Positions 26,534 through 36,610 of a stretch of 64,000 nucleotides of DNA are shown in pieces (position 1 is the stretch's first letter; every line of letters begins with the position of its first letter). Source of the DNA: Pseudodesulfovibrio pelocollis (GTDB lineage: Bacteria > Desulfobacterota > Desulfovibrionia > Desulfovibrionales > Desulfovibrionaceae); assembly GCF_030282845.1 (NCBI RefSeq), contig NZ_JASTWE010000011.1, positions 1-64,000 of the forward strand, in the 5' to 3' direction. A program made the position numbers and the translations under genes. Below the pieces are notes generated by a model, which did no database searches, had not been told where the DNA came from, and worked only from the letters and a program-made list of their open reading frames with translations.

Positions 26534-28315
26534 CTACTCAACTGTTTCTGACTGAGACAACGCTTTGATTTTTTTCAGCAAAGGATAGACTGACTGGAAG
26601 GCCTTGGGTGGCTGCTTACAAAGCCAATCTGCAAAAGTAATTTTTGATGCGCTGTCGATGTCATAGGCAAGGAATTTGTAGTCTGGGTGGATGTGCGGAG
26701 AAATTTTTTCGGTGAAATTGATACTTAACTTTGATTCCCTATCTCTTATGTCTTTAACAATTTGCCGAAGGACAAGAGCTTTTTCTTTGATTGCGCGAGC
26801 AATGACGTCTCTGGGGAATAAAAATTCTATAGGGATCGAGACAGAAAAACTTCCATCAATTTTCTTGTTTACCTTATTTTGTATCTCTTTTGCTTCGTCA
26901 GGCATAGGAATAAGCATGGCATACACTTTTTTGACTTTATTGATGACCTTTATGTCACCTCCAGACACTGTTTTTGCATATTTTAGTTTGTCGTACGCTT
27001 GTCTTCCTTCATTGTCATTGTCAAATATCCCAATTGTAGGAATATTGTTTGATTTTGTTATGTGGTCACATGCCTGAAGATATGAAAGGAGTTTTGTAGC
27101 GCAATTTGCCGGAACAAACTCACAAAAATGGTCTCTAGGAAAGAGGGCGGCTAATGCTTTGTCAAGAATTATTTTATCAGTCGGCCCTTCAACAACGACT
27201 TGTGTAAGAGTTGAGTCGCGAAGCTGCTGAGCCAGTTTTGCATTTGATTCTTTTAGTTCTGCATGTTCATTGACAAGGGATTTCGTCCTTGCGGCAATAA
27301 AAGCAGCAGTGCCGACAAAGCTATCCGCTTCATTTCTGGATGAGATAGGAGCCACGTGAGAAGACTTGTCTGTCATGCCTCCTCTGTCATGTTGGTAAAC
27401 ATGAAACCGCTTGGCTTTCTCTCCAGAGATGTCATAAAATGCTGGCGAGTGTGTTGTGATAAATATTTGATTCTCTTGTGAAAACTCATCCTTGAGTTGG
27501 AGGGCAAGGTCGTAAGCCTTGCTAATTTCTAAGGAGTTCTCTGGCTCCTCATATGCCCAGATGTGATGAACTTTTGATCTGCGAGCGACGAAGTCAAGGA
27601 TGTATGGTATGTGCCGCGTCTGAAGGCCATCCCCTCTTTTTTGCAGCGGGATAAAGAAGTCGTTATGTTTAGTAGTAAAATCTAATGCGCTAAACAGAAT
27701 CCGCAAGTCTTTAGGTACATCAATAGTGCTTTCAATCCCCAAAGCTGTTTGGATTTTTTCCGCCATACTTTCTGTGCTTTCATTGATTTTCCCCATCAGT
27801 GCCCCGGAGGAATCGGATATGCCAGCTTTTTCATCATCAATTAAAGCATCGTGAAGTAAATTTAGGTAACAGCTAAATATCTCTCTGCTTCTGACAGGCG
27901 GGATATAATGAAAACGGATCGAGTTTAAAAATTTACCAATTGTCGTCCTTGAGATCTCATCAGTATGCTTCATGTCCGGGGTTTGAGAGTATCTTGTCCA
28001 AACTTTTTTTACATAGAATGAATCTGGAAGAGATCTCCACTCTTTGAAGTTGTTGAAAGTAATTTTTACCCAAACAGTCATTCGCCCTTTCTGTTTCTTC
28101 GCTTCTTTTTCCCTTGTCCTCGAAATGTCATTCGTGAAGTTGAAAGCTGTGCCCAATTCCGTTTCGTTGTTGAAAAAAAGATTAAGCGCTTTGAGTATAT
28201 TTGATTTTCCTGAATCGTTTTCGCCAATCAGTGTTGTTATGTCGCTAAGGTCTGTAAGCGTGATCGAATATGCAGACCTGAAGTAGTTAATTTCAATTTT
28301 GTTAATGACTTTCAT
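26534..28315 (-). CDS. OLD-family ATP-dependent nuclease (ABC ATPase + TOPRIM)
   Basis: A 593-aa protein. The N-terminal SMC-like ATPase has Walker A GENDSGKS at 31-38, Walker B WAYEEPE around 253-259 and H-loop ITTHSP at 286-291. The C-terminal TOPRIM domain has VVVEGPTDK (Glu376) and FDNDNEG (Asp432/Asp434). This domain pair defines OLD-family endonucleases, many of which serve phage defence. Start ATG 28315 with AGAGGAATGC. The gene is clearly AT-richer than its neighbours, with rare-for-host codons (AAA, TTT, ATA), a sign of acquisition. No UvrD-like helicase is next to it, so it is not a Gabija pair; its neighbour is RhuM. A convergent PgeF-like gene ends 17 bp away. Confidence 0.85.
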   Translation of the reverse strand: MKVINKIEINYFRSAYSITLTDLSDITTLIGENDSGKSNILKALNLFFNNETELGTAFNFTNDISRTREKEAKKQKGRMTVWVKITFNNFKEWRSLPDSFYVKKVWTRYSQTPDMKHTDEISRTTIGKFLNSIRFHYIPPVRSREIFSCYLNLLHDALIDDEKAGISDSSGALMGKINESTESMAEKIQTALGIESTIDVPKDLRILFSALDFTTKHNDFFIPLQKRGDGLQTRHIPYILDFVARRSKVHHIWAYEEPENSLEISKAYDLALQLKDEFSQENQIFITTHSPAFYDISGEKAKRFHVYQHDRGGMTDKSSHVAPISSRNEADSFVGTAAFIAARTKSLVNEHAELKESNAKLAQQLRDSTLTQVVVEGPTDKIILDKALAALFPRDHFCEFVPANCATKLLSYLQACDHITKSNNIPTIGIFDNDNEGRQAYDKLKYAKTVSGGDIKVINKVKKVYAMLIPMPDEAKEIQNKVNKKIDGSFSVSIPIEFLFPRDVIARAIKEKALVLRQIVKDIRDRESKLSINFTEKISPHIHPDYKFLAYDIDSASKITFADWLCKQPPKAFQSVYPLLKKIKALSQSETVE

Positions 28316-28351
28316 GCATTCCTCTGTGTATTTGCGTTGATATATGTGTTG

Positions 28352-28380
28352 GCTATACGCTGATGCCTTGTCGTTGCCAA
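28352..28380 (-). promoter_or_regulatory. Promoter for the OLD-family gene
   Basis: On the minus strand, TTGGCA (28380-28375), 17-bp spacer, TATAGC (28357-28352). The expected leader to ATG 28315 is about 30 nt. The OLD gene thus has its own promoter, downstream of the RhuM terminator. Confidence 0.55.
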
Positions 28381-28427
28381 GATTATGTCGTAATTTATTA
28401 CAGGAATTAGAGTGAGAGTCTTCACCC

Positions 28428-28467
28428 AAACACCGCCGCGCCCCAGTCCGGGAGCGCAGCGGTGTTT
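28428..28467 (-). terminator. Hairpin after rhuM
   Basis: AAACACCGCCGCG and the matching CGCAGCGGTGTTT form a long stem with one mismatch around a loop of about 14 nt. It lies 28 bp past the RhuM stop and before the OLD promoter. T run short, as the outer stem ends in TTT. Confidence 0.55.
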
Positions 28468-28494
28468 GAATGACCCAACTGTCCACGCTCGTGA

Positions 28495-29529
28495 TCAGGG
28501 CTTCCGTCCCTCAATCCCCTTCACCAGTTCCTCAAAATCCCGTTCGGCTTCGATTTCGGCCTGCTCCAGTTCCCGCTGTCTGCGAGCATGGTCAAACGCC
28601 GTGTACTGGCGGTGGGCGTGCTCCTCTGCCTGCTTGTGGGAGACGGTGCCCGCGTCGGTCAGCACTCTCCATTCATTGAACGCAAGGAAGCGGTCGGCGA
28701 TTTCGATCCATTCCTGCATGGTGATGCGCTGGCGTTTTTCGGCGCGATCCTCGGCATGGTCCAGAAACATGGTCACGAGCCGGTCCAGCCTGGAGAGTTC
28801 GTCCTGGTGCAGGTAGTTCTTGGAGGTAATCACATCGCCCTTGCGGACCACGTCGCCCTTGAAGCTGGTCAGCCCCATGTTGGGCGCAGAGGCATTGGCG
28901 CGTTCAACCACGATGGCTGCGGCTGTCTTGCCGGTGATGGCGTAGAGCATCTTGTTCTGGATGGTCTTGAAGAAAGTGCGCGCGGTTTCCGACGTGCCGT
29001 CATAGTCGGCGCTGGTCTGGGTAAACAGGTCCTTGATCTTCTGGTAGAAGCGCTTTTCCGAGGCCCGGATTGCCCGGATGCGTTCAAGCAGTTCGTCGAA
29101 ATGGTCCCAGCCGCCGGGGTTCATCAACCGCTCGTCGTCCATGGTGAAACCCTTGACCATGTACTCCCGCAGGCGCTGCGTGGCCCAGCGCCGGAACTGG
29201 ACACCCACGGACGAGCGGACGCGGTAGCCCACCGCGATGATGGCCTCCAGGCTGTAGTGCTTCAAAGTACGATTTATCTCACGATTCCCCTCACTTCGAA
29301 CTTGTAAGTAATCCTTACACGTTGCCGGTTCATCCAGTTCCCCATCCTCATAAATCGTTTTGAGGTGCATTCCGATGTTCTGCGGGGTGGTCTGGTACAG
29401 GTCGGCCATGGAACGCTGCGTCAGCCAGACGGTCTGATCTTCGACATGGACCTTGACGGAAACGCCGCCGTTAGGGGCGTTGAATATCTCTATTCGAGAG
29501 TCTGGCGCGGGGTTGATCTCGCTCATCAT
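28495..29529 (-). CDS. rhuM: RhuM-family protein
   Basis: A 344-aa protein of the virulence RhuM family (PF13310). Signature stretches: VWLTQRSMADLYQTTPQNIGMHLKTIY near the N-terminus, EINRTLKHYSLEAIIAVGYRVRS, then RFRRWATQRLREYMVKGF-like sequence. A FiC/DOC-related Death-on-curing segment is often found in this family. RhuM genes are typical cargo of genomic and defence islands; function unknown. Start ATG 29529 (or 29526, two adjacent ATGs) with AAAAGGA upstream. Base composition is closer to the host than the OLD gene, so the two may have come separately. Confidence 0.85.
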   Translation of the reverse strand: MMSEINPAPDSRIEIFNAPNGGVSVKVHVEDQTVWLTQRSMADLYQTTPQNIGMHLKTIYEDGELDEPATCKDYLQVRSEGNREINRTLKHYSLEAIIAVGYRVRSSVGVQFRRWATQRLREYMVKGFTMDDERLMNPGGWDHFDELLERIRAIRASEKRFYQKIKDLFTQTSADYDGTSETARTFFKTIQNKMLYAITGKTAAAIVVERANASAPNMGLTSFKGDVVRKGDVITSKNYLHQDELSRLDRLVTMFLDHAEDRAEKRQRITMQEWIEIADRFLAFNEWRVLTDAGTVSHKQAEEHAHRQYTAFDHARRQRELEQAEIEAERDFEELVKGIEGRKP

Positions 29530-32215: not shown

Positions 32216-32872
32216 TTACTTCACCCGGCGGAGGGTCGCGCCGTGTTCGCGGTCGGGGCGCAGTTCGAGGATGCGGTGGGCCGTGTCGGAAAAAAGGTCG
32301 ATGGGGTGGTGGCTGATGACCAGCAGTTGCAGGCCGAGGCGGTCGGCTATCTCGGCGATGAGTTTCATGAGCTTGGGGACAAGGGCGGGCCTGATCCAGC
32401 AGTCCTGTTCATCGAGCACCAGGAAGGGGCGGTGCGCCTCGGGCGCAAGCTGGGACAGGGCGATGAGCCGAAGCCCCACGGACAGGATGTTGCAGACTGA
32501 TCCGCCCTGGCCCGACAGGATGTCCTCCACCCGGTCGCCATCGCCCTGATTGTGGATTTCGAAGCGGATCTGGAGCCGGTTGTTGCGCACCTCGCGCCGG
32601 GTGGCCACCACCCGGTCCTGGCCGAGGATTTCGCGCACGGCATGGGTCAGGTTCAGTTCCACCTCGTCAAGCACCTGGCCGAACAGGGCTGTGGAAAGCT
32701 CCTCCAGCGTGTCCCGGGCGCGCGGGGCCAGGGCCAGGAAGTCGCGCACCCCGGCCAGTTCGTCGCGGACCCGGCCGTGTTCGGCGTGGGCCGCCTCGGC
32801 CAGGGCCGAGAGCCGGTCGAGCCGCCGCCGGACCTCGGTCGGATCAGGCATTGATTCGGCTCCGGATACCAT
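32216..32872 (-). CDS. SbcC/Rad50-like C-terminal ATPase lobe (split)
   Basis: A 218-aa protein that looks like only the C-terminal lobe of an SMC/Rad50-type ATPase. Residues 10-90 are predicted coiled coil (VRRRLDRLSALAEAAHAEHG). The ABC signature is LSGQGGSVCNILSVGL (119-134), Walker B PFLVLDEQDCW (149-159) and the H-loop VISHHP (186-191). There is no Walker A; that lies in the gene at 34137-35483. The start is ATG 32872, overlapping the preceding stop by one base (TGATG); an ATG at 32851 with its own GGAG is an alternative. It is the last gene of the four-gene operon. Annotators may call it an AAA or RecN-like protein. Confidence 0.8.
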   Translation of the reverse strand: MVSGAESMPDPTEVRRRLDRLSALAEAAHAEHGRVRDELAGVRDFLALAPRARDTLEELSTALFGQVLDEVELNLTHAVREILGQDRVVATRREVRNNRLQIRFEIHNQGDGDRVEDILSGQGGSVCNILSVGLRLIALSQLAPEAHRPFLVLDEQDCWIRPALVPKLMKLIAEIADRLGLQLLVISHHPIDLFSDTAHRILELRPDREHGATLRRVK

Positions 32873-33198
32873 CAATCCGCCTGCTCCAGGCTGTTTTCCA
32901 CAGCGGAAAGGTCTGCCTGAATTTGTTGGACATGCTTACGGTATGTGGCGACAAGTCTTTCGTTTTCCTTGCGTTTTTCATCAAGAAGCAGTTGCAGTTC
33001 CTCGGGGTCGCTGGTGCCGTACTCGGCCAGGGCCTGGGCCTTGAGCCCTTCGAGCTGTCCGGTGAGGTGGGTGATGTCTTGCTCGGTGCGCACCCGCTGC
33101 TCGCGCAGGCGTTCATAATCCTGTCGCAGTTCGGCGAGTTCCCGCTCCAGCTGGACGTCCCGGGTCGTCCCGGTGTTGTTGGGGTTGCTATGGGTCAA
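32872..33198 (-). CDS. Small coiled-coil protein in split SbcCD operon (TTG start)
   Basis: A 108-aa protein that is almost all charged coiled coil: VQLERELAELRQDYERLREQ, then RTEQDITHLTGQLEGLKAQ and EELQLLLDEKRKENERLVAT. The start is TTG at 33198, preceded by GAGGAGG at a good distance and overlapping the nuclease gene by 11 bp, the same overlap length seen one gene upstream. There is no ATG option. It ends where the C-lobe gene begins. It may supply the missing part of the returning coiled-coil arm of the split ATPase; not a known family to me. Confidence 0.72.
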   Translation of the reverse strand: MTHSNPNNTGTTRDVQLERELAELRQDYERLREQRVRTEQDITHLTGQLEGLKAQALAEYGTSDPEELQLLLDEKRKENERLVATYRKHVQQIQADLSAVENSLEQAD

Positions 33199-34147
33199 GG
33201 GTGACCTCCTCGTAGAGTTCCCAGATGAGCGCCCCTTCGGGCGTCTCCCTGGACAGGTTTTCTTGCAGGAACTGGCGCAGGCCCATGCCCTCGCGGGTGC
33301 GTTTCCAGGCCAGCCGCTCAAGGCCGCTGATGAAGTCCGACTGCCCCCCGGCCTCCTGCGCCTGGGGCGGAAAATCCTGGTCCGGGAAGACCTGGTCAAA
33401 GGGCAGGAACGGCACGGGCCAGGACTCAAGCTCCTGGCAGCCGGGCGTCCAGATGGCGGCGGCGGGCTGCCGCTCCAGGGAGCGGCGCGAAAAGGTGAGC
33501 CGCGTGATGTTGCCGGGGTTGGCCCAGGTGGTCTGCCCGGCCCGTACCGTGGGCTGGGGCCGGTGGATGTGGCCGTTGATGAGCCAGTCGATGCCGGGCA
33601 GCTCGCGGATGGCGTAGGCCAGGTCCTCGAACTCCGGAAAACGGATGTTGTGATGGGTGAGCCAGACCACGGCTGACGGGCCGTCCGGTGCGCGCTCATA
33701 TCCCCTGGGCAGGGGCGAGCCGTCCGGGCTGGCCCCGACCAGCACGGCCCCTGTGTCGGTCTCGAGGATGAACTGGGGCCCTTCCTCCTTCATCAACCGG
33801 AGGGCCCCGGCCGCCTCCAACACCGCAATGGTCAGGTCCTCGGTGAAGCGCGACTGGTACTTGTCGTGGTTGCCCACCAGCGCCCAGACCCTGTCCGACC
33901 CGGTGCGCGAGCCAAAGAGGCGGATCAGTTCCACAAGCATCTTGTTGGAGTTGTCACGGGGGCGGTGGAAGAGGTCGCCCAGCACGACCGGGACCATGCC
34001 AAGGTCGCGGGCGCGGTCCAGGCAGGCGCCCAGCTTGCTCATGATCTGCTCAAGATAGCCGTCGAGCCGCTGGCCCGGCGGAAGGTCCGCCAGATGCGGG
34101 TCCGCCACCAGAAAAAGCCCATTGGCCCGGATGGTCTCAACACTCAT
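33188..34147 (-). CDS. Mre11/SbcD-like metallophosphoesterase
   Basis: A 319-aa calcineurin-type nuclease. All five motifs are present: VADPHLADL (DxH, D16/H18), VVLGDLFHRP (D58), VGNHDKYQ (N93/H94), WLTHHNIRF and INGHIHRPQP. This matches Mre11/SbcD catalytic domains, though it is shorter and its C-terminal part (DFISGLERLAWKRTREGMGL) is not recognisable. The start is ATG 34147 with CGGAGG 7 bp before, overlapping the Walker A lobe gene by 11 bp. Expected to act as Mn2+-dependent DNA nuclease with the ATPase proteins on either side. Confidence 0.85.
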   Translation of the reverse strand: MSVETIRANGLFLVADPHLADLPPGQRLDGYLEQIMSKLGACLDRARDLGMVPVVLGDLFHRPRDNSNKMLVELIRLFGSRTGSDRVWALVGNHDKYQSRFTEDLTIAVLEAAGALRLMKEEGPQFILETDTGAVLVGASPDGSPLPRGYERAPDGPSAVVWLTHHNIRFPEFEDLAYAIRELPGIDWLINGHIHRPQPTVRAGQTTWANPGNITRLTFSRRSLERQPAAAIWTPGCQELESWPVPFLPFDQVFPDQDFPPQAQEAGGQSDFISGLERLAWKRTREGMGLRQFLQENLSRETPEGALIWELYEEVTLDP

Positions 34148-35483
34148 GGGCATGCCTCCGATCAAGGAAGGAGTCGGCATCGACCCGCGCCCCGCACAGG
34201 GGGCAGCCGCCGATGCCGGCCAGGGCTTCGGCCAGGGTTTCCCTGACCTCCTGCAACCGTGTCTCCAACCCGGCCAGTTCCGACTCAAGGGCCAGCTTGC
34301 GCACGCTCAGTCCGCGAAGGTCGGCAACCAGCTCGGCTAGGCGCGCGTCTGCCTCGACCCGGGGCGGCTCCGCAAGGCTCCGCAACACGTCCTCGCGGCG
34401 GGCCACCCGCCCGATGCGGTAGCGGGCCGCGATCATTTCATCCATAAGTTCGGAGAGTTGTTTCGTTTCGATGGCCTGCGGCGGCGCTGCCAACCCGGAC
34501 ACGGCCCGGCTTCTGACCTCAGCCTTCCGCAAGGCGCGGGAGGTGGCTTGCAGACGGTCGCAGATTTCGGCCAGTCGGCCGGTGTTTTCCACCATCGGCG
34601 GCGCGGCCAGGAGGGCCAGGGCACCACCTGTCCGCCCGGCGGCGGCCAGTCGCGTCGCGGTGCGGCCCATATCCGCCAACAGGGTGCGCAACCTATTGAT
34701 CGGGCTGGGTTCCGGCACCGGCTCAAGGGTATTGAGGAGGGTTGCGGATCGGCGCAGGGCATCAAGTCCTGCGGCCAGTTGGCGCAGGGTCGAGCAGCGG
34801 CCTTCCAGGACCGGCATGGCGGCTTGGAGTTCCTTTGCGGAGGTTTCCAGTCGGCTGACCTCGTCCATGCGCAGGGCGATGTCCGGCATGGGGGCCAGGA
34901 CGTTCAGCCGCGCCTCGATGCGCTCCCGGCGGGTCTCAAGTTCCCGCTCGCTCCGCTTGGCCTCGGTGGTGCGCGCCTTGAGGGCGTTCTGCATGGCCAG
35001 CAGATGGGCGCTCTCGGTGGAGGCGGCAAAGAAGGCGGCGATGTTGGACTCGGGCCGGTTGAGGAGGAAGACGGGCTCGCGCTGGTTGCCCAGGTGCACG
35101 TCCACGGGATCGCCGGTCTCAAGGTCCACCAGATCGAGCCGGAGCAGGGCGCGCACCTCGTCGGGCACCTTGCCCTGGAGCTTCCAGAAGGGCTCCTCGG
35201 GCTCGTTGCGGCCCGGCAGGGTGATCTCGTAGCCCGCGCTGCGCTTCTTGCGAATCCAGACGACCTTTGCCCCGTCACCCAGCACCACCGTGACCCGGGC
35301 CTCCCTGGCGCCATGGCGGATGCAGTGGCTGAAGGACGGGTTGGTGGTCACACAGCGCAGCGCCTCGACAACGGCGGACTTGCCGGTGTTGTTGGCCCCT
35401 GTCAGCGCGGTGATCCCCGGCCCCAGTTCCAGCTCGGTCCGCTCGTGGGCCATGAAATTTTCGAGGATGATGCTGCGTATCAT
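34137..35483 (-). CDS. SbcC/Rad50-like N-terminal lobe with zinc hook (split)
   Basis: A 448-aa protein with an SMC/Rad50 N-lobe: MIRSIILENFMAHERTELEL, Walker A GANNTGKS at 29-36 and a Q-loop-like region, then a long coiled coil (about 170-420), ending in CPLCGARV, a zinc-hook CxxC at 427-430, only 18 residues before the stop. In normal SbcC/Rad50 the hook is in the middle and a second arm and C-lobe follow. Here the chain ends just past the hook, and signature and Walker B are in the gene at 32216-32872. First gene of the operon. The gap upstream (35484-35707) contains the cruciform element. Confidence 0.85.
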   Translation of the reverse strand: MIRSIILENFMAHERTELELGPGITALTGANNTGKSAVVEALRCVTTNPSFSHCIRHGAREARVTVVLGDGAKVVWIRKKRSAGYEITLPGRNEPEEPFWKLQGKVPDEVRALLRLDLVDLETGDPVDVHLGNQREPVFLLNRPESNIAAFFAASTESAHLLAMQNALKARTTEAKRSERELETRRERIEARLNVLAPMPDIALRMDEVSRLETSAKELQAAMPVLEGRCSTLRQLAAGLDALRRSATLLNTLEPVPEPSPINRLRTLLADMGRTATRLAAAGRTGGALALLAAPPMVENTGRLAEICDRLQATSRALRKAEVRSRAVSGLAAPPQAIETKQLSELMDEMIAARYRIGRVARREDVLRSLAEPPRVEADARLAELVADLRGLSVRKLALESELAGLETRLQEVRETLAEALAGIGGCPLCGARVDADSFLDRRHAHEC

Positions 35484-35584: not shown

Positions 35585-35709
35585 AGCAGGTGGCGGAAAT
35601 GGTTCGAGTGCTAGGCGCAAGAGCCATGCAGGGCCGAAGCGTACTCCGGTACGCGAGGGTCTGCATGGGTCGCAGCAACGACGCAATCGGGCCATTTACG
35701 CCACCTGCT
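35585..35709. repeat. 125-bp cruciform-forming element
   Basis: Nested inverted repeats with a common centre. Outer arms AGCAGGTGGCGGAAATGG (35585-35602) and CCATTTACGCCACCTGCT (35692-35709), 17 of 18 paired. Next TTCGA/TCGGG. Then TGCT/AGCA. Then CCATGCAG (35624-35631) with CTGCATGG (35661-35668), perfect. The tip is GCGTAC-TCCG-GTACGC (35639-35654), perfect. A transcript of either strand would fold into one long rod. The right arm covers two of three bases of the stop codon of the 35708-36610 gene. Could be a MITE-like or REP-type mobile repeat or a structured RNA. Confidence 0.8.
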
Positions 35710-36610
35710 ACGGGTAGCGCGGTTTGGGGTGGCGTGTAAAGAACCAGGGGGCCGGGCCGAGATGGCGCATGGCCTCGTTGTTGGCCTGCCAGCGCTCGGC
35801 CAGGGGGGCGGGCATCCCGTGGCGGTCGCAGGGGAAGTCGGCGCACTGGAAACAGTAGTTCACCCCGCGCTCGCGGGCGCAGGCGGGCACGGCGCAGCTT
35901 TTGAAGAGGCACCCGGCCTCGCGGCATCCGGTGCAGGAGCCCGAGGCGAGGTAGTCGAGCAGCTCGCGAAACGCGGCAAAGTTGCCAAAGGCCGGGTTCA
36001 TGGCCGCGAAGCGCTCGGCATAGGGGGTGAAGTTGTCGCCAAGGGCCGCCTTGAGGGCGCTGGCCGACTGCTGGATGGGCCCGCCGTCAAAGGCGAGGCA
36101 GGTGGCGCAGAGCAGGCCGCAGGGCGCGAGCCGGGAGCGGACAAAGGCGGCCTCGTCGGGCAGATGGCCGGTATCGCGCAGCAGGTTCAGGGCGATGTCC
36201 ACGGCCCGGACCACGTACTCGATGCAGCGGGCCTTGATGTTCTCGTCCCTGAACCTGGCCTGACCCTCGGGCGTGGCAAAGTCGCAGCCGGTCAGGTCGA
36301 AACAGTTGATGGAGCCGAAGGCATCGCGGAATTTGTCCTGGAATTCCTGGACCAGTCCGTAGGCCGGGTCGTACTCCCCGCCGGGCTCGGTGCGGCCCGC
36401 ATGCAGGCCGATGCCCATGACCGCCCCGGACACCGCGCCGCACTGGCCGCAGGTGCGCGCCATGCCGCTGCAAAATCCGGTGGCCAGGGGCGTCAGGGGC
36501 CGGGGATCGCGCCCTCCGGCCTCGGCGATGAGCTTGAGCACGATCTCTGCACAGTAGAGGTCGCCGGAGTTGAAGAGATCGGCGGCTGCGGTGTGGAGGT
36601 GGTCATGCAT
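35708..36610 (-). CDS. C_GCAxxG_C_C family protein fused to DUF3795 domain
   Basis: A 300-aa two-part protein. Residues 1-150 match the C_GCAxxG_C_C redox family (DLYCAEIVL; ATGFCSGMARTCGQCGAVSGAVMGIG; NCFDLTGCDFATPEG). Residues 160-290 match DUF3795, a Cys-rich zinc- or Fe-S-binding domain (LAPCGLLCATCLAFDGG; SCTGCREAGCLFKSC; NYCFQCADFPC). Both occur in anaerobes and are probably redox or metal proteins; no function is known. The final codon lies inside the cruciform element, so the C-terminus may have been changed by it. Overlaps the next gene by 8 bp. Confidence 0.8.
   Translation of the reverse strand: MHDHLHTAAADLFNSGDLYCAEIVLKLIAEAGGRDPRPLTPLATGFCSGMARTCGQCGAVSGAVMGIGLHAGRTEPGGEYDPAYGLVQEFQDKFRDAFGSINCFDLTGCDFATPEGQARFRDENIKARCIEYVVRAVDIALNLLRDTGHLPDEAAFVRSRLAPCGLLCATCLAFDGGPIQQSASALKAALGDNFTPYAERFAAMNPAFGNFAAFRELLDYLASGSCTGCREAGCLFKSCAVPACARERGVNYCFQCADFPCDRHGMPAPLAERWQANNEAMRHLGPAPWFFTRHPKPRYP

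Follow-up and report, generated by a model that had tools for sequence, protein, structure and literature searches.

Rad50 and the SMC proteins are built, as a textbook feature, with two antiparallel arms that meet at a hook or a hinge. The question addressed here is how such a machine may be organized when the two lobes of its ATPase head are encoded by different genes and the hook lies at the end of a chain. The question is raised by four overlapping genes on the minus strand of Pseudodesulfovibrio pelocollis DNA, found in a stretch of 64,000 nucleotides (positions 1 to 64,000 of contig NZ_JASTWE010000011.1, assembly GCF_030282845.1), which is referred to below as the window. A previous inspection of this sequence (the original prediction) described an SbcCD/Mre11-Rad50-like operon with the ATPase split over three of the four genes. 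Sequence comparisons and structural models indicate that the operon probably encodes a chromosomal Mre11-Rad50-type DNA-end-processing complex, in which Rad50 would be split into two proteins with one long arm rather than two.

The two halves of the ATPase

Gene 1 (34137..35483, minus strand) encodes a protein of 448 amino acids, comprising a Rad50-type N-lobe ATPase, a modular arm and a C-terminal zinc-hook half. It overlaps gene 2 (33188..34147, minus strand) by 11 bp, gene 2 overlaps gene 3 (32872..33198, minus strand) by another 11 bp, and gene 3 shares 1 bp with gene 4 (32216..32872, minus strand). On re-reading the sequence, the genes, overlaps and coordinates agreed with those given earlier.

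The protein encoded by gene 1 matches Pfam AAA_23 above the cut-off, while its score against AAA_27 (PF13514) is below it (14.9 bits, cut-off 22), and TIGR00618 is absent among the families listed at E up to 1. The Walker A motif GANNTGKS (35376..35399, minus strand) covers residues 29-36, of which G29, G34 and K35 are invariant across 67 gene 1 sequences; the gene 1 alignment (A5) omitted L141, L163, L164, partial rows and some near-duplicates. AlphaFold models were built from alignments of 67 sequences for gene 1 and 70 for gene 4. The gene 1 model has a mean predicted local distance difference test score (pLDDT) of 83.8 and a predicted template modelling score (pTM) of 0.41. In a structure search, its residues 1-142 were superimposed on the Rad50 head 1f2u_C (Z 11.9, 131 residues, root mean square deviation (rmsd) 2.8 A), and the first 140-160 or so residues fit SMC N-lobes about equally (3kta_A, Z 13.3, 136 residues, 3.0 A). 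Likewise, the N-lobe profile matches both SMC6 (E 4e-12) and Rad50 (E 8e-11). These structural results are the best among the matches listed, and families beyond the list stay open as candidates.

At the other end of the chain, the motif CPLC (34194..34205, minus strand; residues 427-430) is followed by only 18 residues. When the tails of gene 1 proteins were compared with the PDB, the two best matches were the zinc-hook crystals 1l8d (E 5e-6) and 6zff (E 7e-6), the next being at E 1.7e-3, and both matches span only the first half of these structures, i.e. the first helix and the hook. Of 87 gene 1 homologues, 85 have a CxxC motif that starts 9-40 residues before the C-terminus, and CPxCG is found near the gene 1 end in all 37 four-gene loci of the relatives' genomes described below. 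Gene 1 thus carries the CxxC sequence of a zinc hook, for which zinc binding is putative. Between the lobe and the hook, residues 158-424 or so are predicted as a row of helices interrupted at Pro-Pro motifs, and residues from about 252 to 402 (34278..34730, minus strand) form an arm of Pro-Pro-marked units of 39 residues. In chromosomal sequences the most frequent spacing of these units is 39 residues (113 unit pairs), with 38 and 40 next (16 each). The Walker A lobe and the hook of the original prediction therefore stand, while its coiled coil is predicted as helices broken every 39 residues and not as one smooth coil.

Gene 4 starts with ATG and encodes 218 amino acids, forming a Rad50-type C-lobe ATPase with a long N-terminal helix. 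All of the features originally read in it were recovered: the helix is followed by the signature position GQGGSVCN (32489..32512, minus strand; residues 121-128), Walker B FLVLDE (32408..32425, minus strand; residues 150-155) and the H-loop SHH (32306..32314, minus strand; residues 187-189), and Walker A is absent. The model of gene 4 (mean pLDDT 89.4, pTM 0.70) opens with a helix of 73 residues (residues 11-83), and the best structural match of its residues 61-218 is chain B of 1f2u (Z 12.6, 142 residues, rmsd 3.0 A). In profile comparisons the cohesin chain 6qpw_E (E 6e-6) ranks ahead of the Rad50 C-lobe 3qkr_B (E 2.6e-5), other Rad50 matches being weaker. In the 1f2u crystal the N and C lobes of the Rad50 head are themselves separate chains; hence, two chains are able to form a head of this kind. 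In one genome (G003, locus L074) the last part of gene 4 is duplicated about 36 kb from the intact operon; this extra copy contains two in-frame stops and is broken.

The nuclease and the small coiled-coil protein

Gene 2 encodes an Mre11-like metallophosphoesterase of 319 amino acids that matches Pfam Metallophos above the cut-off; TIGR00619 is absent among the families listed for it at E up to 1. Its assignment as an Mre11-like nuclease with all five metal motifs holds, as D16, H18, D58, N93-H94-D95, H165, H193 and H195 are identical in all 66 aligned nucleases, including the canonical ones. This alignment comprised 51 split-system proteins (37 chromosomal, 14 phage), 12 of the YhaO type and three SbcD, and in the tree calculated from it the 51 cluster apart from the 15 canonical proteins with a support of 0.98. 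Gene 3, which starts with TTG, was confirmed as a coil gene of 108 codons; its product is a small two-helix coiled-coil protein with only sub-threshold coil matches in Pfam.

Occurrence on bacterial chromosomes

A search of 78 relatives gave full-length gene 4 in 35 of 36 genomes of the same genus, the exception (G029) being an assembly that is 82% complete, and in three of 10 other genomes of the family. All four genes occur in the same order at 37 loci, i.e. in the same 35 genomes and in two of the other 10, with gene 1-2 and 2-3 overlaps of mostly 8-14 bp. Neighbouring genes, which we take to include accD and murJ, recur at as many as 33 of 98 loci, and the loci that share them are all from Desulfovibrionales. 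One of the 12 largest neighbour clusters extends to Desulfacinum, and among these 12 no other conserved neighbours were seen far outside Desulfovibrionales.

For a wider chromosomal set, a genome collection was scanned with two conserved gene 4 peptides and the best 80 of 123 relatives were kept, so that fused or divergent forms are under-counted. Among these best 80 loci, 67 have the four genes on one strand and in the same order; the other 13 are six loci cut by contig ends, six with a lone gene 4 and room around it, and one (L167) without gene 1. The order seen in the window is thus shared both within the genus and among related chromosomes, as the original prediction had asked. The carriers belong to Pseudodesulfovibrio, Salidesulfovibrio, Solidesulfovibrio, Fundidesulfovibrio, Desulfacinum, Desulfobacca, Syntrophobacteraceae and Desulfobacterales. 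Many others are Planctomycetota, Rhodopirellula rubra and Gimesia among them, and the set also contains two assemblies of Bacillota and one of Parachlamydiaceae (Chlamydiota). Even sampling of the window's phylum gave gene 4 (E up to 1e-15) in 20 of 395 genomes, and that of the phylum to which the planctomycete G081 belongs in 11 of 294, indicating that the split system is a minority at this level.

In four genomes (G039, G080, G081 and G083) gene 4 stands apart from genes 1-2-3, on a different contig and with other genes around it. Gene 1 of G039 is present only as a fragment at a contig edge; in G081 gene 3 lies at a contig edge, yet the downstream neighbours of gene 4 are the same as in G080. 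The separation in G078 is a mere contig break, and gene 1 was not found in G079 and G082.

Relation to canonical Mre11-Rad50 genes

The same 78 relatives were divided into carriers and non-carriers, a carrier being a genome with a full-length gene 4 match (weakest E 6e-71), and searched for canonical genes, taken as PF13514 at E<1e-15, TIGR00618 at E<1e-30 or TIGR00619 at E<1e-8; these categories were set by the analyst. Canonical Mre11-Rad50-type genes were found in one of 38 carriers and in 36 of 40 non-carriers (Fisher p 1.4e-16, uncorrected for shared ancestry), and strong PF13514 matches (E<1e-15) in none of the 38. The Mre11-like gene of most sister genomes is accompanied by a single-chain ATPase of the PF13514 type, mostly of about 1170-1420 amino acids, which together with its nuclease is presumably the YhaN/YhaO pair. 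The sole carrier with canonical genes is G012, which has SbcCD too. At its locus L218, where the split operon of this same-genus genome occurs along with SbcCD matches, the C-terminal part of SbcC occupies a frame of its own, about 1.3 kb away from the remainder of the gene.

It had also been proposed that the genome be checked for a normal SbcC; a search of the genome to which the window belongs gave no normal SbcC/SbcD or YhaN-type gene, the best TIGR00618 match there having E 2e-5. Stronger AAA_23 matches were considered as a leftover SbcC and rejected, as by translation they read as OLD-type (L001, L004), RecN-type (L002) and AAA_21-like (L005) proteins; this reading covered the matches other than those at C42, C18, C1, C37 and C31. 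The split system stands where relatives carry Mre11-Rad50-type genes, the YhaO-YhaN pair apparently being its counterpart in them, which suggests that the whole genus relies on the split form instead of SbcCD or the YhaON type.

Permuted fusions on megaplasmids

A search with the ATPase of a Bosea plasmid gave matches in 21 of 72,556 plasmid records, and in nine of these the match spans 80% or more of the query. The hosts are Bosea, Rhizobium, Methylorubrum, Acidiphilium and Variovorax and, more distantly, Pseudomonas, Vibrio, Alteromonas and Aeromonas. Each of the nine records examined encodes one ATPase of 573-772 amino acids, in which the gene 4 part precedes the gene 1 part. In the Variovorax protein, for example, residues 7-185 fit the gene 4 profile (E 7e-33) and residues 227-654 the gene 1 profile (E 4e-65). 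Walker B and the H-loop precede Walker A in all nine, and a CxxC motif lies 10-61 residues from the end in all nine as well. The signature, in its plasmid versions GGA or GGS, was matched ahead of Walker B in eight, being altered in Acidiphilium. A match to gene 3, still a separate gene, lies upstream in eight of the nine and a match to gene 2 downstream in seven. Judged by its sequence, the protein of these proteobacterial megaplasmids is a circularly permuted Rad50 that still ends in a hook. Only about 100-140 residues precede the signature, without a long return arm.

Since genes 4 and 1 are naturally fused, they represent two parts of the same machine, and the fused protein lacks a return arm as well. 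Together with the lobe-specific matches and the genomes where gene 4 is not linked to genes 1-3, the fusions bear out the earlier proposal that the ATPase is divided between genes 1 and 4. In two Pseudomonas and Alteromonas megaplasmids, translations of the gene downstream of the permuted ATPase (L230, 5254-6156; L231, 5141-5917) resemble a gene 2 relative stripped of Mre11 metal motifs, so that those complexes may be nuclease-dead.

The phage form

In PHROGs the two halves fall into separate families, gene 1 into phrog_16465 ('exonuclease', E 3e-24) and gene 4 into phrog_15167 ('ATPase', E 8e-6). When viral contigs were scanned with gp35 of Bacillus phage vB_BboS-125, 27 loci were obtained, all of which have genes 1, 2 and 4. 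A two-helix gene of 77-78 codons was recognized by pattern in 24 of the 27; at L187, L193 and L194 a gene of this length was seen between genes 1 and 4 on reading the translations. In the phages Tunturi_5, Magritte and LR745208, gene 4 is separated from gene 1. The A1 scan of viral contigs gave 0 of 14 candidate stretches, and the permuted Bosea ATPase had no match in the phage collection.

Weighing the alternatives

According to the original prediction, genes 3 and 4 together would form the returning arm, giving a normal antiparallel Rad50 arm made from three chains. Such an arm would need to keep pace with gene 1. Lengths were compared over 55 loci, after dropping L141, L163, phage loci, loci without an extracted gene 1, 3 or 4, and those with a gene 1 of 380 amino acids or less. 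Gene 1 ranges from 399 to 681 amino acids in rough classes (12 loci at 399-412, 19 at 428-455, six at 480-499, 13 at 507-533 and five at 542-681), while gene 3 stays at 97-124 and the part of gene 4 before the signature at 97-130. The slope of gene 3 plus the pre-signature part on gene 1 length is 0.047, i.e. 0.047 residue per residue of gene 1, where a matching antiparallel arm needs about 1, and in the 4-1 fusions gene 3 remains separate. Hence, genes 3 and 4 do not simply supply the second half of the arm. A return arm of this kind would agree with the long helix at the start of gene 4, with the position of the coil gene 3 next to gene 4 on chromosomes and of small coil genes beside gene 4 in phages and plasmids, and with a weakly positive rank correlation between the lengths of genes 3 and 1 (0.40); on balance it is unlikely. 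A decayed or misread single SbcC gene, arising by base error, frameshift or programmed frameshift, has nothing in its favour other than the short gene overlaps. Gene 2 sits between the genes for the two lobes, 67 of the best 80 chromosomal loci retain the split, several genomes and phages have gene 4 at a distance from genes 1-3, and the natural fusion has the opposite order. This reading is refuted by the conserved split, the unlinked gene 4 and the reversed fusion, and is vanishingly improbable; the base error near 34137 or 32872 that had been named as a possible cause is ruled out, since 35 of the 36 same-genus genomes share the four genes and their order.

The operon had further been suggested to be a defence variant, and an anti-phage or anti-plasmid system of the Rad50/Lamassu kind would account for the weak PADLOC matches of gene 1 (best LmuB, E 2.7e-10 over residues 2-437); it would also suit the presence of the system on phages and megaplasmids and an unrelated defence-like island 3 kb away. 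PADLOC gives no match for gene 2, however, and its matches to genes 3 and 4 are all weak. The operon is near-universal in the genus (35 of 36 genomes), is partly syntenic, with neighbours common to up to 33 loci, and is distributed in a manner complementary to Mre11-Rad50-type genes, in whose place it stands. Weak matches combined with a housekeeping-like distribution and synteny make defence less likely, and we regard it as quite improbable.

As for the split, one-armed complex, comparison of sequences and structures establishes which lobe each gene encodes, that the hook is terminal, that the operon is conserved, that a permuted fusion occurs in nature and that the distribution is complementary to that of canonical Mre11-Rad50-type genes. 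Several observations weigh against this complex. The support consists of sequence comparison and single-chain models, from which the complex as a whole is inferred, and with a pTM of only 0.41 the arm shape is not fixed by the gene 1 model. Lengths do show weak rank correlations with gene 1, namely the above 0.40 for gene 3, 0.33 for gene 4 and 0.26 for its pre-signature part. L141 and L163 (Planctomycetota), two of the 87 gene 1 homologues, have a different C-terminal end without the CxxC motif, which is also missing at the terminus of gp155 of Microbacterium phage Magritte, a gene 1 relative; phage gene 1 proteins are without evident 39-residue units (0-4 weak matches). The phage coil of 77-78 residues, which may or may not be a homologue of gene 3, was aligned with it by hhalign at 73% (E 3e-5), where a control, the gene 1 tail coil, itself reached 34% (E 4e-4). 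Pfam gives no match for gene 4, the Rad50 signature SGGE reads QGGS here and GGG in phage rows, and the ATP sandwiching or ATP cycle may differ with this change. The similarity of gene 2 to solved Mre11/SbcD structures is weak (E about 1e-3), and its relative looks degenerate on some gammaproteobacterial plasmids. Lastly, the test of carriers against non-carriers ignores shared ancestry.

Proposed architecture and mode of action

In the split, one-armed complex, gene 1 would supply the Walker A lobe and a single arm of 39-residue helical units running to the C-terminal zinc hook, and gene 4 the signature/Walker B lobe with a short helix. Chains 1 and 4 together would form one ATPase head, which presumably assembles from the two chains in the cell. 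The product of gene 2 would be the Mre11-like nuclease of the complex and that of gene 3 a small coiled-coil subunit. Two gene 1 arms may be connected tip to tip through a zinc ion coordinated by two CPxC motifs. Both arms of such a dimer are equal in length; they could therefore pair side by side in parallel, which would explain variation in steps of 39 residues without change in genes 3 and 4. Parallel pairing of hook-joined arms would be the simplest arrangement that tolerates length variation; alternatively, the units may form hairpins within one gene 1 arm.

By analogy with SbcCD, two heads would bind ATP between the gene 1 Walker A of one and the gene 4 signature of the other. ATP would close and open the heads and so gate the cutting of DNA ends, blocked ends and hairpins by gene 2, and the arms may tether or zip during the cycle. 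How the hook senses ATP bound at the head is still unsettled in the field.

Neighbourhood of the operon

The upstream neighbour of the operon (35708-36610, minus strand) combines a C_GCAxxG_C_C redox-type domain and DUF3795 in one protein. At a distance of 3 kb and unrelated to the operon, a stretch of low guanine-cytosine content (26534-29529, minus strand; 0.49-0.56 as against about 0.67 around it) encodes an OLD/GajA/AriA-like AAA ATPase of 650 amino acids next to a RhuM-family protein (PADLOC candidate PDC-S05, E 7e-143). This stretch is likely an acquired defence island.

Known systems and significance

The operon resembles SbcCD/Mre11-Rad50 (TIGR00618, TIGR00619; 1F2U, 1L8D, 6ZFF) in its Rad50-type N- and C-lobes, CPxC hook, helical arm and adjacent Mre11-like nuclease with the same metal ligands. 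Genes 1 and 4 jointly supply both lobes of a Rad50-type ABC head, with an altered signature, and a nuclease with the five metal motifs is encoded in the same operon. In PMC6969161, Mre11/Rad50 is described with two antiparallel arms meeting at the hook. The present Rad50, by contrast, occurs as two proteins or as one permuted chain, with separate or reversed lobes, a C-terminal rather than mid-chain hook and no long returning arm, and differs further in the changed signature, the modular arm and the extra small coil gene; SbcC and SbcD family models give no match above the cut-off. The YhaO-YhaN pair (PF13514) likewise places an Mre11-like nuclease beside a Rad50-like ATPase, which is one long chain there, whereas gene 1 falls below the PF13514 cut-off. 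Lamassu has a single-chain LmuB with LmuA/LmuC; gene 1 is without a C-lobe, and neither LmuA nor LmuC is listed for genes 2-4 at E up to 1. phrog_16465 and phrog_15167 share the separate N-lobe protein with terminal CPxC and the separate C-lobe protein; they are annotated as unlinked single families in which the hook and the split are undescribed, and 39-residue units were not seen in them.

Mre11-Rad50 fusion proteins are known as non-canonical mobile forms in phages and megaplasmids, and those of Bacillus phage 0305phi8-36 and Anaerostipes are noted to be without one P-loop segment (PMC3175470). These proteins join the nuclease to Rad50, whereas here the nuclease is a protein of its own and it is Rad50 that has its lobes split or permuted; the P-loop-deficient fusions are the nearest published hint. 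In the literature searched, no description of a split, permuted or terminal-hook Rad50 was found, in line with the earlier suggestion of an undescribed variant, and the classification of ABC ATPases in PMC7544218 might contain one.

More broadly, and with chances that we put somewhat short of even, the system may represent a further class of the SMC/Rad50 superfamily, beside the hinge SMCs and the two-armed Rad50. Its members would have a head of separate or swapped lobes and one parallel-pairing arm per head, with a length set by the number of 39-residue units and a zinc-hook half at the C-terminus, and would open without unzipping an intramolecular antiparallel coil. They would form an old mobile family of bacteria, phages and megaplasmids that is able to displace canonical Mre11-Rad50. 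With a Rad50 that has one long arm, a hook with a free end and lobes that can be separated, the need for a return arm, the effect of arm length and the meeting of the lobes become directly testable, and the 39-residue units could be added or removed to probe arm length. The comparison also ties phage genes labelled merely 'exonuclease' and 'ATPase' to one machine, whose occurrence on phages and megaplasmids would fit a role in the replication and repair of large replicons.

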